Origin: Acidobacteria bacterium RIFCSPLOWO2_12_FULL_66_21
GTDB taxonomy: Bacteria > Acidobacteriota > Vicinamibacteria > Vicinamibacterales > 2-12-FULL-66-21
Reading direction: 5' to 3'
Assembly (NCBI GenBank): GCA_001767455.1
Contig: MELC01000024.1
Location: 124,001-188,000 of the forward strand
Length of the DNA: 64,000 nt
In this document: positions 8,193 to 51,977 of the stretch, in pieces
Layout of the letters: every line of letters begins with the position of its first letter
How positions within the stretch are numbered: the first letter of the stretch is position 1
The notes under the pieces: generated by a model
What the model was told of the DNA's origin: nothing
The model's database searches: none
What the model saw: the letters and a program-made list of their open reading frames with translations, nothing else
Position numbers and translations under genes: made by a program

Positions 8193-8200
8193 TGTACGGC

Positions 8201-8353
8201 AGTCAACTCCAAATTCCAAACGCCAAACTCCAAAGCCACTCCGAATTCAAAATCTCAAATTCAAACTCCAAACTCCAAACTACCTTTGAAATTTCGAGTT
8301 TGGCCTTTGAAGTTTGGAGTGCCTTTGGAGTTTGGCGTTTGGAATTTGGAGTT
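8201..8353. repeat. Palindromic short-repeat array (CAAACTCCAAATTCC words)
   Basis: The left arm 8205-8242 and the right arm 8316-8353 are reverse complements with one mismatch in 38 positions. Each arm is made of variants of CCAAACTCCAAATTCCAAA. The inner 70 bases continue the same words less regularly. The left end begins AGTCAACTCC, and the right arm runs into the TAA stop of the methyltransferase. It fills the junction between the convergent receptor and methyltransferase genes. Confidence 0.9.
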
Positions 8354-9248
8354 ATCTGCGAAGCCGCGGCGCTACAAGCGCGCGCCGCGTTCTCTCAACG
8401 GCTTCGTTCAAATAATGCTCGTCCATCTCCACGCCGATGAAGTCGAGGCCGAGCTCGGCGGCGGCGACCGCCGTGCTCCCGAGGCCGAGAAACGGATCCA
8501 TCGCGAGCGTGATGCGGGTCAGCCCGTGCAGCTTGAAGCAGTACTCAGGCACGCGGGGCGGGAATGTCGCCGGATGCGGCCGGTCCTTGTCGCGGCTCTG
8601 GATCGTCTCGTACGGGATGAACCAGGCGTTGCCGCGGCACCGCCGGTTGTCGCCACCGCTCCGCCACCGGGCGATGTTCGACTCGTCCTGGTAGCGCACG
8701 CCGATCGCGCGTCGATCGAGCTTCGTCCGGCCGCCCGCCGTGAAGTGGAAGATGAACTCGTGGCAGTCGTTCAGGAACCGATCGCTGTTAATCGGCTTGT
8801 AGTGACCGACGGCGATGTCGCGGTCGAGACCGACAGCCGCGCCGGCCGCGTCCCTGTCGATGGCAATCGACTTCACCCAGTGGATGGTGTTCTGGAGGTG
8901 CAGGTGCCGCCGCGCCGTCTGCGCGACGTCCATCGCCGTCCACGGATCGGTCGGCTTTGCCCCCACATTGAGGAAGAGGCTGCCGTCCTCCGCCAGCGCG
9001 TGGCGCGCCGCGGCCAGCCAGGCGTCGGTCCATTCCAGGTAGTGCTCGCGCGGCAGGGAGTCCTGGTAGGTGCGGTATTGGATGCCGAGGTTGTACGGCG
9101 GGGAAGTGACGATGACGGAGACAGTGCCGGCGGGCAGCGCCTCGAGAAGTTCGACGGAATCGCCGAGGAAGAACCGGAGCTTGCCGCGGCCCGAGTCGAT
9201 CGTGGTGTGTGGTTCCGGAAGCGCGCGACGCTTCCCCGAGATGGGCAT
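8352..9248 (-). CDS. Beta-class DNA (adenine-N6 or cytosine-N4) methyltransferase
   Basis: 298 residues. The catalytic motif TSPPYN is at about residue 49, ahead of the AdoMet-binding motif DPFLGLGST near residue 255, which is the order of the beta class. The intervening region, with HEFIFHFTAG and a variable Arg-rich segment, is the likely target-recognition part. It methylates DNA in a sequence-specific way; the target base (A-N6 or C-N4) is not decidable here. No restriction endonuclease is beside it, so it may be an orphan regulatory methylase. The stop codon lies inside the neighbouring repeat array. The ATG at 9248 precedes residues (MPISGKRRALPEPHTTID) that lead into a normal family start. 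Confidence 0.9.
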   Translation of the reverse strand: MPISGKRRALPEPHTTIDSGRGKLRFFLGDSVELLEALPAGTVSVIVTSPPYNLGIQYRTYQDSLPREHYLEWTDAWLAAARHALAEDGSLFLNVGAKPTDPWTAMDVAQTARRHLHLQNTIHWVKSIAIDRDAAGAAVGLDRDIAVGHYKPINSDRFLNDCHEFIFHFTAGGRTKLDRRAIGVRYQDESNIARWRSGGDNRRCRGNAWFIPYETIQSRDKDRPHPATFPPRVPEYCFKLHGLTRITLAMDPFLGLGSTAVAAAELGLDFIGVEMDEHYLNEAVERTRRALVAPRLRR

Positions 9249-45826: not shown

Positions 45827-48118
45827 ATGCGCCTGGTCCGCGTCGCCGTTCCCGTGCCCGCGCTCGACGCGCTGACGTATTCCGTTCCGGACGGCGTCGC
45901 GGATCCGCCCGTCGGCGCCCGCGTACTGGTGCCCCTCGGTAACCGGATCATCACGGGCTGCGTGCTGGATTCCGAGTCGAGCGCCGAGCGCCGAGCGCCG
46001 AGCGCCCGGGGCGACAACTCCCAACTGTCAAGCCCCAACCTCCAACTCCAAACTTCAAACTCCAAACTCCAAACGTCCAATGCCGGAATCAAGCCGATCA
46101 TCGAGGTCCTCGATGGCGGGCCTTTTCTGCCGACAGACGTTCTGAAGCTCGCGACGTGGGTATCGAACTACTACGCGTGCGGTATCGGCGACGCGATTGC
46201 CGCTGCCATGCCGCCATGGGCCCTGAAGGGCGTTCGGTCCAGGTTCCGCACGACGCGCGTCGCCGCGCTCACGGTGCAGGGACACGACTCGCGGGACCTG
46301 CGGCTCGGCGCCAGGCAGCGGGAAGCGCTCGACCTGCTTGCGGGCTCGCCTGACGGCATGGACACCGCGGAGCTCGCCGAGCGGGGCATCGGCGCCGCGA
46401 CGCTGCGGCGTCTCGCGTCGCTGGGCCTGGTCCGCCTGTCACGGCGCGCCGTCGAGCGCGACCCGTTCCACCGCGGCGCGATGATGAGCGCCGTGGCCCG
46501 CACGCCCCACACGCTGACGGCGGAGCAGGCGGACGCCTTCGAGCAACTGCGCGAGCTCGTGGCGCGGCAGTCCTTCCAGGCCGTGTTGCTGCACGGCGTC
46601 ACCGGCAGCGGGAAGACCGAGCTCTACCTGCGTCTTGCCGAGGAAGTCCGCCGGCTCGGACGCGGCGTCCTGCTGCTCGTGCCGGAGATCGCGCTCACGC
46701 CGGCGGTCGCGGGTCTGTTTCGCGCGGCCTTCGGCCAGCGGGTGGCGATCCAGCACAGCGGCCTGTCCGACGGCGAGCGTCACGACCAGTGGCAGCGCAT
46801 CCGCCGCGGCGAGGTCGACGTCGTGGTTGGCACCCGGTCGGCCGTGTTCGCCCCGCTCCCTTCGATCGGCCTGATCATCGTCGACGAGGAGCACGACGGC
46901 TCGTACAAGCAGGAAGAGAGCCCGCGCTATCACGGCAGGGACGTGGCGGTCGTGCGCGCGCGCGAGTCGGCCGCGCTCGTGGTGCTCGGCTCGGCCACGC
47001 CGGCGATGGAGAGCTTCCAGAACGCGCAATCCGGCCGCTACACGCTGCTGTCGCTCGAAAGGCGGGTGCTCGACCGCCCGATGGCCGCCGTGCGCATCGT
47101 CGACATGCGCGAGGAGTACGCGGCAGCGGGGCCCGATGTGACGCTCAGCGCGACATTGACCGAGGCGCTCGCCGAACGTCTCGAGCGGCGCGAGCAGGCC
47201 ATCGTGCTGCTGAACCGCCGCGGATTCGCGACCGCTGTGTTCTGCCGGCAGTGCGCCGCGACGCTGGAATGCCCGAACTGCAGCGTGACGCTGACCGTCC
47301 ATCGCGCCGCGCGCCGGGCGCGCTGCCACTACTGCAACTATTCAACGGGGATCCCGAAGACCTGCGCCCACTGCGCGGGTCCGTATCTGGAGCAGACCGG
47401 GTTCGGGACGGAGCGGATCGAGGCGGACATCCGGGAGCGGTTCCCGGCGGCGCGCGTCGCGCGGGTCGATCGCGACACGGTCCGGAAGCGCGGCGCCATC
47501 GCCGGCGTGCTGGAGCGCTTCGCGGAAGGGGAGCTCGACGTGCTCGTCGGCACGCAGATGATTGCGAAGGGACACGACTTCCCGCGCGTGACGCTCGTCG
47601 GCGTGATTTCAGCCGACGTCGGCCTTGGCCTGGCGGACTTCCGCGCCGGTGAACGGACCTTTCAGCTGCTGACCCAGGTGGCGGGGCGCGCGGGGCGCGG
47701 CGAGATTCCCGGCGAAGCGATCGTGCAGACGCTCTATCCGCACCACTACAGCATCCGGCACGCCTGCCGCCAGGACTACCAGTCGTTCTTCGCGGAGGAA
47801 CTGGCGTTCCGCACGGCGATGCGCTACCCGCCGGCCGTCGCCCTCATCAACGTCATCGTCAAGGCGCGCACCGAGCAGGCGGCGATGGAGGACGCCGGAG
47901 CGCTGGCCGGCGCGCTGCGCATCGGCGGCGAGCCTTACCGCGTGCTGGGGCCCGCCCCCGCGCCTCTGAGCCGGCTGAAAGGGGAGCACCGCGCGCAGTT
48001 CTTCATCAAGGGCACGCACCGCACGTCCATGAAGAACGCGCTCGTGACGGTCCTTGCCTCGCGCCCCGAGATTCGGCGACGGACGATCGTGGATGTTGAT
48101 CCGATGAGCGTCCTGTGA
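45827..48118 (+). CDS. priA: Primosomal replication-restart helicase PriA
   Basis: 763 residues. The N-terminal DNA-binding domain (1-140) contains ALTYSVPDG and VLVPLGNRIITGCVLD. Walker A GVTGSGKTELYLRL is near 257, the DEEH box in LIIVDEEHDGSYKQEESPRY near 352, and the zinc-binding cysteines CRQC, CPNC, CHYC and CAHC near 474-515. The helicase motif GTQMIAKGHDFPRVTLVG and a C-terminal domain follow. It reloads the replisome at stalled forks. Oddity: residues of about 45-86 are translated from repeat-array DNA (SNSKLQTSNAG) and look like an in-frame insertion between two strands of the N-terminal domain. Confidence 0.95.
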   Translation: MRLVRVAVPVPALDALTYSVPDGVADPPVGARVLVPLGNRIITGCVLDSESSAERRAPSARGDNSQLSSPNLQLQTSNSKLQTSNAGIKPIIEVLDGGPFLPTDVLKLATWVSNYYACGIGDAIAAAMPPWALKGVRSRFRTTRVAALTVQGHDSRDLRLGARQREALDLLAGSPDGMDTAELAERGIGAATLRRLASLGLVRLSRRAVERDPFHRGAMMSAVARTPHTLTAEQADAFEQLRELVARQSFQAVLLHGVTGSGKTELYLRLAEEVRRLGRGVLLLVPEIALTPAVAGLFRAAFGQRVAIQHSGLSDGERHDQWQRIRRGEVDVVVGTRSAVFAPLPSIGLIIVDEEHDGSYKQEESPRYHGRDVAVVRARESAALVVLGSATPAMESFQNAQSGRYTLLSLERRVLDRPMAAVRIVDMREEYAAAGPDVTLSATLTEALAERLERREQAIVLLNRRGFATAVFCRQCAATLECPNCSVTLTVHRAARRARCHYCNYSTGIPKTCAHCAGPYLEQTGFGTERIEADIRERFPAARVARVDRDTVRKRGAIAGVLERFAEGELDVLVGTQMIAKGHDFPRVTLVGVISADVGLGLADFRAGERTFQLLTQVAGRAGRGEIPGEAIVQTLYPHHYSIRHACRQDYQSFFAEELAFRTAMRYPPAVALINVIVKARTEQAAMEDAGALAGALRIGGEPYRVLGPAPAPLSRLKGEHRAQFFIKGTHRTSMKNALVTVLASRPEIRRRTIVDVDPMSVL
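45967..46083. repeat. Repeat array inside the priA reading frame
   Basis: GAGCGCC is repeated four to five times (45972-46007), followed by CCAACCTCCAACTCCAAACT and CTCCAAACTCCAAACG. The second part is the same word family as the junction arrays at 8201, 17071 and 51371. The total keeps the priA frame open. Confidence 0.85.
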
Positions 48119-48629
48119 GACGCAAGCGGTGAAATGTCGAACGCAGACCGTTAAACGTAGAACGCGAAATCACCAAGGACCGGACATTCTAGGTTCGTCT
48201 CTGTGTAACGTGTCGAGAGATCCAGCGGTCGTGTCCCGCTGCACGCGCCGACGGCTTTCATTGCACGAAGACCACGAAGCTCACGAAGTTCACGAAGACT
48301 GCAAGACAGCAAGACAGAAGAACAGCACGAAGCGGGCGGGAGTACTGATACGGCTGGACCGTCGAGCGCCGGCCACAATCACGCCTGAGGCCGGCGGTGC
48401 AGGACAGCCGGAACCCGCAAATGCAAACAGCTCGGGATCGAATGCTGCTTGCGTTTGCGGGTTCCGACTGTCCTTGCCGCGCTGCGCGCGGCTCGACGGT
48501 TCAGCCCGCTGCGTGAGTGTCTTCGTGACCTTGGTGTCCTTCGTGAGCTTCCTGAAAAGCCGTGGCCTGTCTCAGCGTGGTTCCGGGAGAACCTCGCTGA
48601 ACGAAGACCTAAGTTCTACATTCTACGTT
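48119..48629. repeat. 511-base nested palindromic junction without a supported gene
   Basis: Matching inverted pairs are nested from the outside in. ACGTAGAACGC words (48125-48170) face TTCTACATTCTACG (48611-48630). CACGAAGACCACGAAGCTCA (48264-48300) faces GTCTTCGTGACCTTGGTG (48517-48545). TGGACCGTCGAGCG faces GCTCGACGGTTCAG. CAGGACAG plus GGAACCCGCAAATGCAAA face TTTGCGGGTTCCG plus CTGTCC. The junction is convergent (priA and the M50 protease). Open frames crossing it show no family features. Confidence 0.85.
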
Positions 48630-49664
48630 TCACGGGTTTCGCACGAGATCGTACGGTTCGATCGGAACCGGAGTGAAGCACAACACCAGGATGACGAGCG
48701 CGACGACTGCGAGGATGGTGCGTCCGGCGCCGAGCCGCTCGTACTCGTCAATCACGCGCGGATGGCGCGGGCCGAGCACGAGGAGCATCGCGAGCATCAT
48801 GACCGTCATGAACAGCCAGCTCAGGGAGATGTACGTCATGACCATCGCGGACGCGACGGTGGCGATCGAAAGCGGCGTGGACCAGCGCCTCAACGTCGCG
48901 TAGCTGATGTGTCCCCCGTCGAGTTGTCCGAACGGCAGCAGGTTCAGCGCGGTCGCGAGCAGCCCGAACCATGCGGCAAAGGCCATCGGATGCATGTTAA
49001 AGGTATAGCCCGCCGGGATGGTGCCGAACACGGCGGTCGCGGCAAGCTGGAACATCAACGGCAAGCCGATTGACAACCCGCTGCCCGTGGTCGGCTCGGG
49101 GATGATCGGCGACATCGACAGGCCCAGAAACAGCGCGGGCACGAGGACGGCGAATCCGGCAATCGGTCCCGCGATACCGATGTCGAAGAGAACGCGCCGG
49201 TTCGGAAACGCTTCCCTGATCTTGATGACGGCGCCGAGCGTGCCGGTGATCGGCAAGGGAGCCGGAATGAAATACGGCAGCGTCGCGTCGACGTTGTACC
49301 GCCGGCAGAGCAGGTAGTGGCCCATCTCGTGGGAGCCGAGGATGGCCAGGAGGGTTCCGCTGTACCAGAGGCCCCTCGCCAGCAGCCGCCAGTCGAACCG
49401 GTCGAATTCAGGACTGCGGCGGCCGAACTCCGACAGGTAAGATTGGTAGTGTGCAGCCCCGGCCAGCATCGTCGTCAGGAGCGTTACGACGAACAACAGC
49501 AGGTGGACCCACAGGCGGCTGCGGAACTTTGGCGGGAGTGGGGTCCACCGCCCATCGAAAACGGGAGGACTCCATTCGCGGCCGTCGCGGGGCGAAGTTC
49601 CAGTGAACGGGTCCTCGGGAAGCGAAGGCTCTGGAAGGTCCGAGCCGTCAGGCGGATACGGCAA
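48630..49664 (-). CDS. Site-2-protease-like M50 membrane metallopeptidase
   Basis: 344 residues. A Pro-rich cytosolic head (1-45) is followed by six to seven transmembrane helices. The zinc-binding HExxH is in ILGSHEMGHYLL near 110, and the third ligand is in LNLLPFGQLDGGHIS near 245. An intramembrane GIAGPIAGFAVLVP segment lies between them. S2P proteases cut membrane-bound regulators or signal peptides. The substrate is unknown; no anti-sigma factor is nearby. It shares its upstream edge with HU (stop of HU at 49665), so HU and this gene are probably one transcript. The first residues overlap nothing else. Confidence 0.9.
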   Translation of the reverse strand: MPYPPDGSDLPEPSLPEDPFTGTSPRDGREWSPPVFDGRWTPLPPKFRSRLWVHLLLFVVTLLTTMLAGAAHYQSYLSEFGRRSPEFDRFDWRLLARGLWYSGTLLAILGSHEMGHYLLCRRYNVDATLPYFIPAPLPITGTLGAVIKIREAFPNRRVLFDIGIAGPIAGFAVLVPALFLGLSMSPIIPEPTTGSGLSIGLPLMFQLAATAVFGTIPAGYTFNMHPMAFAAWFGLLATALNLLPFGQLDGGHISYATLRRWSTPLSIATVASAMVMTYISLSWLFMTVMMLAMLLVLGPRHPRVIDEYERLGAGRTILAVVALVILVLCFTPVPIEPYDLVRNP

Positions 49665-50019: not shown

Positions 50020-51372
50020 ATGTCCCTGAAACGCGCCTCGGCCGGACCCACGGTCGTGCTTGTCGGCCGGCCCAACGTCGGAAAGTCCACGCTCTTCAAC
50101 CGCATCACGAATTCGCGGCGCTCCATTGTCACGTCCATCGCAGGCACGACTCGCGACGTCATTTCTCTGCCCGCCGAGTGGCAGGGGACCACGTTCACGC
50201 TCGTGGACACCGGGGGAATGTTCGGCGCGAGCGAGGATCCGCTGCACGAGCTGGTGGTGATTGCGGGGCGCCGCGCGCTCGAGACGGCCGACGTTGTCGT
50301 GTTCGTGGTGGACGGCCGGGAAGGGCTCGTGCCAGCCGATCAGGAGATTGCCGCCGGCCTGCGGTCCGTCGCCGTGCCTGTCCTGATGGCGGTGAACAAG
50401 ACCGACGACAAGCGCGCGCGGGGACGGTCGGCCGAGTTCTACCAGCTCGGTTTTGAGCCGGTGGTCGAACTGGCGGCCGAGCACGGCGAAGGCGTCGGGG
50501 ACCTGCTCGACGAGATCATCCAGCGGTTTCCGGCGCGGCGGGGCCTCGGCGAGTCCCCGGACAGGCCCGAACAGACGGCCGTGGCGATCGTGGGACGGCC
50601 GAACGTCGGCAAGTCATCGCTCCTCAACCGGTTGCTGCGAGAGGAACGCTCCATCGTCAGCGACACGCCGGGCACCACGCGGGACACGGTCGACGCGGTC
50701 CTCAAATGGCATCACCGCATCTTCCGCATCGTGGATACGGCCGGAATCAGGCGGGCGGGGCGCGTGGCGCGCAGCGGCCAGCTCGAATCCCTGAGCGTCA
50801 TCCTCGCGCGGCGCGCGATCGAGCAGGCGGATGTCGCGGTGCTCATCGTGGACAGTTCCGAAGGAGCCGCCGACCAGGACGCGACGATCGCCGGCGAAGC
50901 GGAAAAGGCGGGCTGCGGGATCATCATCGCCGCGAACAAGTGGGACCTGATGAAGGGACGCGGCCCGGATTTCTCGAAGGAGTTCGACGACCAGCTTCGG
51001 CAGCAGATGAAGTTCCTCGATTACGCGCCGATCCTGCACATTTCGGCCTCCACCGGGGAACGGACGCCGAAGCTGCTCGAGACGATCGACAAGGTGGCTG
51101 AGGCGCGGGTGAAGCGGATTTCGACCGGCGAGCTGAACCGGTTCATTCAGGCCGTGACCGCCGTGCACCCGCCGGCCAGCCCCGGCAAGCGCGAGGTGCG
51201 CATCATGTATGCGACGCAGAAGGGCGTCGCGCCGCCGACCTTCGTGCTGTTCACGAACATCGCGACAGAGTTTCACTTCTCCTACCAGCGGTTCCTCGTC
51301 AATCGCCTGCGCGAGTCGTTCGGGTTCATAGGCACGCCCATACGGCTGCAGGTCAGGAAGAGGGAACGATAG
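50020..51372 (+). CDS. der: Ribosome-assembly GTPase Der (EngA)
   Basis: 450 residues with two tandem G domains and a KH-like C-terminal domain, the unique Der layout. G domain 1 has GRPNVGKSTLFNRI near residue 13 and VDTGGMF near 64. G domain 2 has GRPNVGKSSLLNRL near 192, DTAGIRR near 241 and NKWD near 307. The KH-like domain begins near 355 with TGELNRFIQAVTA. It is needed for 50S subunit maturation. It is divergent from HU. Its TAG stop is the first bases of the inverted-repeat-bounded element at 51371-51977. Confidence 0.95.
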   Translation: MSLKRASAGPTVVLVGRPNVGKSTLFNRITNSRRSIVTSIAGTTRDVISLPAEWQGTTFTLVDTGGMFGASEDPLHELVVIAGRRALETADVVVFVVDGREGLVPADQEIAAGLRSVAVPVLMAVNKTDDKRARGRSAEFYQLGFEPVVELAAEHGEGVGDLLDEIIQRFPARRGLGESPDRPEQTAVAIVGRPNVGKSSLLNRLLREERSIVSDTPGTTRDTVDAVLKWHHRIFRIVDTAGIRRAGRVARSGQLESLSVILARRAIEQADVAVLIVDSSEGAADQDATIAGEAEKAGCGIIIAANKWDLMKGRGPDFSKEFDDQLRQQMKFLDYAPILHISASTGERTPKLLETIDKVAEARVKRISTGELNRFIQAVTAVHPPASPGKREVRIMYATQKGVAPPTFVLFTNIATEFHFSYQRFLVNRLRESFGFIGTPIRLQVRKRER

Positions 51373-51977
51373 TCAATTCCAAACTCCAAACTCCAAACTC
51401 CAAACTCCAAACTCCAAAGGCACTCCAAACTCCAAAGGCACTCCAAACTCCAAAGGCACTCCAAACTCCAAACGGTTCATTTGCCTTCGGACCTGCGGAT
51501 GATCGCTGCGACGATCTTCATGAGTTCCTCAGCTTCAATAAGCACGGGGTCATGGATCTGCGCGAGGAACCCGGTTTTGCGCAGGATTCGGAGGCGAAAT
51601 CTGGTCTCCTTGAGTTCGCGCAGCGTGATCTTCCTTTTCGCCCACCGGTCACGCTCGCTTGATGCGCTGTCGGCCTCCTCATAGTTGGCCCCGGCCGACG
51701 TCCCGCACCTCAATAGTTGCCCTGAAAGTTCAACCGCGACCGGACCGCGGGTGTGCAGGTACTGCACCAGCCGAACGACCGTGCACCCAAAGAGAAGTAG
51801 CCTTTCGCGCACATCGTAAGGCTTTTTCGGAATGTTCCAATCTGATTCGTCCATGTACCAGCACCGTCCGTGCCACATGCCAGTTGACAAGATCTGATCT
51901 GGATTTTGGAATTTGAACTTTGGAATTTGAATTGTGAAGTGCGTTTGGAGTTTGGAATTTGGAGTTTGGAATTGACT
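51371..51977. mobile_element. Element with inverted array ends and an S23-type ORF (proposed)
   Basis: The outer 35 bases at each end (51371-51405 and 51943-51977) are reverse complements with one mismatch. Both begin AGTCAATTCC, then CAAACTCC-type repeats. The left array runs to about 51475 and includes three copies of CACTCCAAACTCCAAAGG. The right array runs from about 51899. Between them is a single ORF for a four-helix-bundle protein. The ends overlap the stop codons of der on the left and the kinase on the right. There is no transposase. Calling it mobile is inference from structure; what is seen is the inverted ends, the ORF and the same words at other junctions. Confidence 0.55.
51477..51854 (-). 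CDS. Four-helix-bundle protein (S23 / 23S rRNA intervening-sequence family)
   Basis: 125 residues from the ATG at 51854 (MDESDWNIPKKPYDVRERLL); an ATG at 51878 is the alternative. LLLFGCTVVRLVQYLHTRGP, the core LLRCGTSAGANYEEADSAS near residue 50, and KITLRELKETRFRLRILRKT near 75 match the small all-helical S23 family. The family is known from ORFs in 23S rRNA intervening sequences, and its fold resembles the Avd accessory protein of diversity-generating retroelements. The molecular role is unknown, and oligomeric nucleic-acid binding is suspected. Here it is not in an rRNA gene but between inverted repeat arrays, and its TGA abuts the left array. Confidence 0.88.
   Translation of the reverse strand: MDESDWNIPKKPYDVRERLLLFGCTVVRLVQYLHTRGPVAVELSGQLLRCGTSAGANYEEADSASSERDRWAKRKITLRELKETRFRLRILRKTGFLAQIHDPVLIEAEELMKIVAAIIRRSEGK

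Follow-up and report, generated by a model that had tools for sequence, protein, structure and literature searches.

A nested palindrome at a priA/M50 junction of an Acidobacteria genome contains a probable foldback/MITE-like mobile element with a cloverleaf core

Large palindromes are unstable in bacteria. Bacterial MITEs are short, multi-copy sequences that lack an ORF, carry terminal inverted repeats and duplicate their target, and the STRR sequences of cyanobacteria are intergenic tandem heptamers. As described, the long inverted ends of Tm1, a foldback (FB) transposon of root-knot nematodes, are composite and contain tandem words; it has MITE-like members that are non-autonomous, duplicates mostly 9 bp (8-10) of its target and occurs in nested copies (PMC3169594). 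REPs are given as 20-40 bp sequences with an unpaired GTAG or CGTC (PMC3733652), and some insertion sequences are reported to favour them (PMC1525189), a habit comparable to the heptamer-array preference presented below. Heptameric repeats in the form of intergenic tandem heptamers are also described in Xanthomonas and Nostoc (PMC4692102).

The palindrome considered here fills, with its 511 nt (48119-48629), the gap between the stop codons of priA and an M50 peptidase gene in a 64,000-nucleotide stretch of the Acidobacteria bacterium RIFCSPLOWO2_12_FULL_66_21 genome (the window; Table 1). Everything inside its outermost inverted pair (48197-48608) is one dispersed element, which resembles bacterial MITEs in being short, multi-copy and ORF-less with terminal inverted repeats and a target duplication, and differs from them in consisting almost wholly of nested palindromes with exchangeable layers; we know of no parent insertion sequence for it. 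It shares with FB/Tm1 composite inverted ends that contain tandem words, the presence of non-autonomous members, target duplication and nesting, whereas Tm1 is eukaryotic and reported to include transposase-coding members (PMC3169594); here no transposase with these ends was seen, and a conserved cloverleaf forms the core. REP, BIME and REPIN sequences and the REP-targeting insertion sequences likewise present palindromes as repeats and insertion targets (PMC3733652, PMC1525189), with the difference that the present element targets heptamer arrays, in which any one of several words can occur. The Xanthomonas and Nostoc heptamers, as described, resemble the target of the element, whereas here many words occur in inverted pairs and the element itself is no heptamer repeat (PMC4692102). 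Finally, the described 23S rRNA intervening sequence with its S23 ORF also holds cargo between complementary arms (PMC4990558), whereas the present stretch is intergenic, lies outside rRNA, and contains neither an ORF in the element nor an S23 match. The cloverleaf with interchangeable arms is the unusual part of an otherwise foldback/MITE-like element, of which no description was found in the open-licence literature. Elsewhere in the window (51371-51977), an S23-type ORF element (PF05635 match) has 35-nt ACTCCAA heptamer arms that are 97% complementary; its arms-plus-cargo design is the same, and two other loci (L047, L050) look alike with other heptamer words.

Table 1. Features of the priA/M50 junction, in window coordinates.
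Feature	Coordinates	Strand	Basis or remark
priA	45827-48118	+	left neighbour; stop codon is the left limit of the 511-nt stretch
Left arm and loop of older GTAGAAC heptamer palindrome	48129-48188	.	outermost pair; insertion target
Inverted pair 1 (outermost)	48134-48162/48621-48649		ACGTAGAAC words
Target-site duplication, left copy CTAGGTTC	48189-48196	+	flank comparison
Mobile unit, 412 bp, multi-copy in genome	48197-48608	+	genome search with 542-bp query
Left end GTCTCTGTGTAACGTGTCGAGA	48197-48218	+	end-pattern search
A arm, left: GCCGACGGC and CACGAAG nonamer words	48236-48303	+	inverted-pair and copy alignment
Inverted pair 2	48261-48299/48519-48557		CACGAAG words
Inverted pair 3	48352-48367/48491-48506		GGCTGGACCGTCGAGC
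Cloverleaf core	48359-48499	+	fold of aligned copies
Cloverleaf closing stem	48359-48366/48492-48499	+	
Cloverleaf hairpin 1	48367-48396	+	
Cloverleaf long hairpin	48401-48474	+	
Inverted pair 4	48401-48431/48444-48474		GGAACCCGCAAATGC
Cloverleaf hairpin 2	48477-48491	+	
A arm, right (complement of left A arm)	48518-48581	+	
Right end GAGAACCTCGCTGAACGAAGAC, inverted relative to left end	48587-48608	+	end-pattern search
Target-site duplication, right copy CTAAGTTC	48609-48616	+	7/8 match to left copy
Remainder of heptamer palindrome right arm	48617-48633	.	contains M50 stop codon
M50 peptidase gene	48630-49664	-	right neighbour, convergent with priA

We interpret the unit as a non-autonomous, cruciform-forming foldback/MITE-like transposable element, and assign this interpretation a probability of about 0.72. 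The original prediction of a multi-level palindrome with four inverted pairs and no supported ORF was borne out: all four pairs were located, the 511 nt fold at -240.9 kcal/mol compared to -189.7 ± 6.1 for 100 dinucleotide shuffles (z -8.4; 0/100 as low), and no coding capacity was found, the 314-aa open frame that spans the stretch having no Pfam match. The right arm of the heptamer palindrome extends to 48633, so that the M50 stop codon (48630-48632) falls inside it; the repeat may have set the C-terminus of the M50 protein.

The unit belongs to a multi-copy family with inverted ends. Searching its own genome with a 542-bp query returned at least 106 matching pieces from the 40 of 124 candidates that were scored, a lower bound that counts pieces and not copies; 38 stretches around matches were taken and 13 copies aligned. 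Matches on six contigs (C11, C27, C62, C64, C78 and C91) sit at contig ends, which is what recent near-identical repeats would give. The shared part begins GTCTCTGTTTAGCG(TGTCGAGA) and finishes (GAGAACCT)CGCTAAACAAAGAC, the two ends being inverted copies of each other, with imperfect 14-bp terminal inverted repeats (consensus GTCTCTGTTTAGCG on the left, CGCTAAACAAAGAC on the right). With up to 3 mismatches allowed, the left-end consensus had 13 matches in the genome and the 24-base right-end pattern seven, against 0 for each reversed control, and 16 left ends of dispersed copies were read. The 14-base end with 2 mismatches was discarded as a copy count (121 matches versus 101 in the reversed control); among seven further matches with 0-1 mismatches that were taken for reading, two (L150, L153) proved to be copies, both adjoining heptamers. 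No transposase was seen beside the element ends that were read. The genome was searched for two transposase families, Y1 and the IS256 type (PF00872); an IS256 partner was rejected, PF00872 having 0 matches. A DNA search of 60 genomes, with the best 10 candidates per genome scored, recovered the element in its own genome only.

Outside the ends lies locus-specific sequence with heptamer arrays, mostly of GTAGAAC, also of GCTGATA, GTTGGGA and CGACGTT. Seven copies have both ends; in these, the 8 bases immediately left of the unit and the 8 immediately right of it are identical at 51 of 56 positions, whereas identity at offset 7, the expectation without duplication, is 10/49. Lag-7 identity within the flanks is 0.63, compared to 91% at the 8-bp register, with the element ends and the register chosen after the copies had been seen; because the target arrays have period 7, the duplication could be 1 bp instead of 8. 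The repetition of 8 flanking bases indicates that the insertion site lay in one of the two arms of a heptamer hairpin, by eye the right arm in the window and the left arm in L015 and L016. Heptamer preference is apparent from 9 of 14 left flanks with lag-7 identity of at least 12/21, versus 8.3% of noncoding 28-mers in the window (12/14 flanks by eye), while L030 and L095 are clearly outside heptamer arrays. The outermost pair consists of GTAGAAC words and forms a heptamer hairpin of a type frequent in the own genome, where a three-unit GTAGAAY pattern has 109 matches, overlapping within arrays, versus 0 for the reversed control. At 8199-8359 of the window, a cargo-free heptamer hairpin, with 67-nt arms that are 82% complementary and a 27-nt loop, is an unfilled example of this kind of insertion target. 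A further heptamer array (CGAGCGC, AACTCCA; 45970-46080) lies in frame within priA and resembles a palindromic element that the protein has tolerated; the Pfam match to the 3'-binding domain of priA falls into two stretches.

Two findings had been named at the outset as speaking against nested insertion, namely conservation of the 511 bp as a unit in all relatives and a match to a known structured RNA. Neither was seen. Across 29 M50 loci of other genomes, priA is adjacent and convergent in 26, and the alignment-to-alignment gap is 4-120 bp in 23 of these 26, compared to 518 bp by the same measure here. The three larger gaps (170 bp in L066, 272 bp in L082 and 719 bp in L081) do not contain the element by eye, that of L081 holding coding-like sequence. 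As all junction relatives, like every other genome searched, belong to other genera, the comparison establishes a derived insertion rather than an exact empty site. In Rfam 15, the 511-bp stretch had no match at gathering score, with just generic hairpin families under their cut-offs, and the sole match at gathering score in the window is a tRNA elsewhere.

The innermost part of the element is a conserved fold. Fifteen own-genome copies align to one structure, in which a closing stem carries a GC hairpin, a long hairpin and a second GC hairpin, and 98.7% of 715 cells are paired. Thirteen pairs changed on both sides, versus 5.4 in shuffled and 2-6 in slid alignments; these changes come mostly from the long hairpin, as the GC hairpins barely vary and are uninformative in this respect. 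A covariance model recovered the fold in 10 of 149 genomes, own included, in genera g2, g3, g5 and g7 of the own family and g24, g40, g58, g72 and g73 of families f2, f6 and f12. The nine other genomes, from four families counting the own, carry it inside arms of other words (by eye CACAGATT, GGCGCAGAG, CAACGGAGG, CGCGGATC and CACGGAGG), and 16/16 examined non-own cloverleaves fold as in the own genome, with three hairpins above a closing stem. Between the left and right flanks of these cloverleaves, a mean of 9.5 complementary 8-mers is shared, compared to 2.4 for swapped loci and 2.2 at 600 nt further out. This measure was used instead of the flank-duplex energy (mean about -113 in other genomes versus -95.9 ± 22.3 swapped), a weak control because words of different loci partly cross-pair. 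In the cloverleaf, folding rather than sequence is kept. A conserved ACAAGC apex was dropped, ACAAGC or GCTTGT occurring in just 13 of 31 cores. A model search of 396 genomes of the phylum, limited to the best 8 candidates each, found the fold in the own genome only and missed G036, and so is no evidence of absence; among 15 matches of a hairpin scan of genome contigs, the five read (L133, L137, L139, L142 and L144) had no cloverleaf by eye.

That one and the same innermost fold is enclosed by unlike words in different relatives implies that layers are exchanged, perhaps by insertion, conversion or arm turnover. G036 has two cloverleaf copies, one in CACGAAG and one in CGCAGAG arms, and in G004 several layers surround one core by eye. 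Within the own genome, inner and left-arm identities of the 15 copies are uncorrelated (Mantel r -0.03, p 0.54), which is suggestive rather than proof, given how short and diverged the arms are. The inner parts of L009 and L017 are 94% identical and lie in opposite orientation, and the outer ends of these two copies differ (GTCTCTG... and GACAGCCACCCCCACGCTG).

These observations could also be accommodated by stepwise nested insertion, with every inner palindrome entering the loop of one already in place, as originally proposed. The shared cloverleaf in unlike arms across genera, the two word types of G036, the uncorrelated inner and arm histories and the existence of reduced forms would all fit. 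Nevertheless, seven copies that share ends or arms and lack inner parts (L014a, L014b, L015, L019, L020, L021 and L037) break at differing points, several at 3-5 base matches in one alignment read by eye, although L014a and L015 have one junction in common. Varied break points at short matches are what deletion of hairpins leaves, and the shorter copies look like internal deletions rather than earlier stages, contrary to stepwise growth inside the core. Two reduced forms without these ends, L045 (A arms only, short loop) and L040 (A arms and GC hairpins, long hairpin missing), are another matter: there, insertion would be compatible with the deletion evidence, which comes from end-bearing copies. 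No duplication was seen by eye at inner borders, and the one supported insertion entered an arm, not a loop. Nested insertion is supported in the outermost layer alone, where 412 bp entered a heptamer palindrome with an 8- or 1-bp duplication; entry into the middle is not supported. The palindrome is not one unit, nor was it built up by elements that each entered the centre of the preceding one, and we consider the stepwise account improbable.

Slightly less probable still is a structured non-coding RNA, or an RNase III-processed sequence like the 23S intervening sequence, that spread as a repeat and whose cloverleaf acts as RNA. The two-sided changes, including those in the long stems, and the fold kept across four families would suit a functional RNA, but the polarity of the fold would not. 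Among 11 copies with clear orientation (arm score difference of 10 or more), the inner part lies as in the window in four and is inverted relative to the arms in seven, with four further copies ambiguous, and the covariance model scores on both strands. Long-stem mismatches in the 15 copies comprise 29 G.T and 10 A.C; as 15 of the G.T are fixed by the search pattern, the comparison is 14 versus 10, which gives no clear strand bias. Together with the lack of an Rfam family noted above, these results argue against this account, and the flips, both-strand matches and absence of a clear bias favour a DNA-level over an RNA-level role. A terminator function was rejected, as genes at 29 loci show almost no preferred orientation (tandem at 14 loci, convergent at 7, divergent at 5 and 'inside ORF' at 3, by a crude caller).

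A REP/REPIN element mobilised by a RAYT (Y1) transposase is very unlikely: the genome has three Y1 matches, but two of these genes (L148, L149) have on their sides arrays of another GTAG-tagged hairpin, GTAGCGCAGCCCTTTAGGGCTGCC, and the third (L147) has GGGGTCTGACCCC words, while the element greatly exceeds a REP in length, contains no 20-40 bp hairpin with an unpaired GTAG or CGTC, and has no such tag conserved across genera. The GTAGCGCAGCCCTTTAGGGCTGCC arrays that flank the Y1 (RAYT-like) genes at L148 1160-2200 and L149 1270-2130 are a separate REP-like family of this genome.

Under the preferred foldback/MITE-like interpretation, a 412-bp palindromic unit, in which CACGAAG-word arms enclose the cloverleaf, entered an older GTAGAAC hairpin in its right arm, duplicating about 8 bp, and such units prefer heptamer arrays. 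A cut-and-paste transposase acting in trans would move the unit, with a cruciform or single-strand hairpin as the probable working form. Layers swap and invert between copies, probably as palindromes recombine or undergo conversion at the DNA level, and copies would decay through internal deletions, the presumed source of the short copies. More tentatively, the cloverleaf, with its closing stem, two GC hairpins and one long and almost perfect hairpin, might mark a class of bacterial mobile DNA that has not been described before, with structure kept across at least four families while stem sequence, enclosing tandem-word arms and outer ends are freely swapped. It might then serve as substrate of a transposition or repair system that recognises hairpins and in addition makes or mends the tandem-word arms.

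The own genome keeps dozens of large palindromes in concentric layers that mix and match, and the persistence of a fold from genus to genus despite replacement of its sequence is a sign of either selection on the folded form or hairpin-templated copying. Heptamer-hairpin targets would also explain repeats piling up at the same junctions and breaking assemblies. A arms are additionally found in tandem arrays (L032 2290-3207, L039 1-850, L041 2340-2700 and L043 1980-2330), with runs of the GACAGCGG octamer between the arms in L032 and L041, suggesting that arms also multiply without the cloverleaf.
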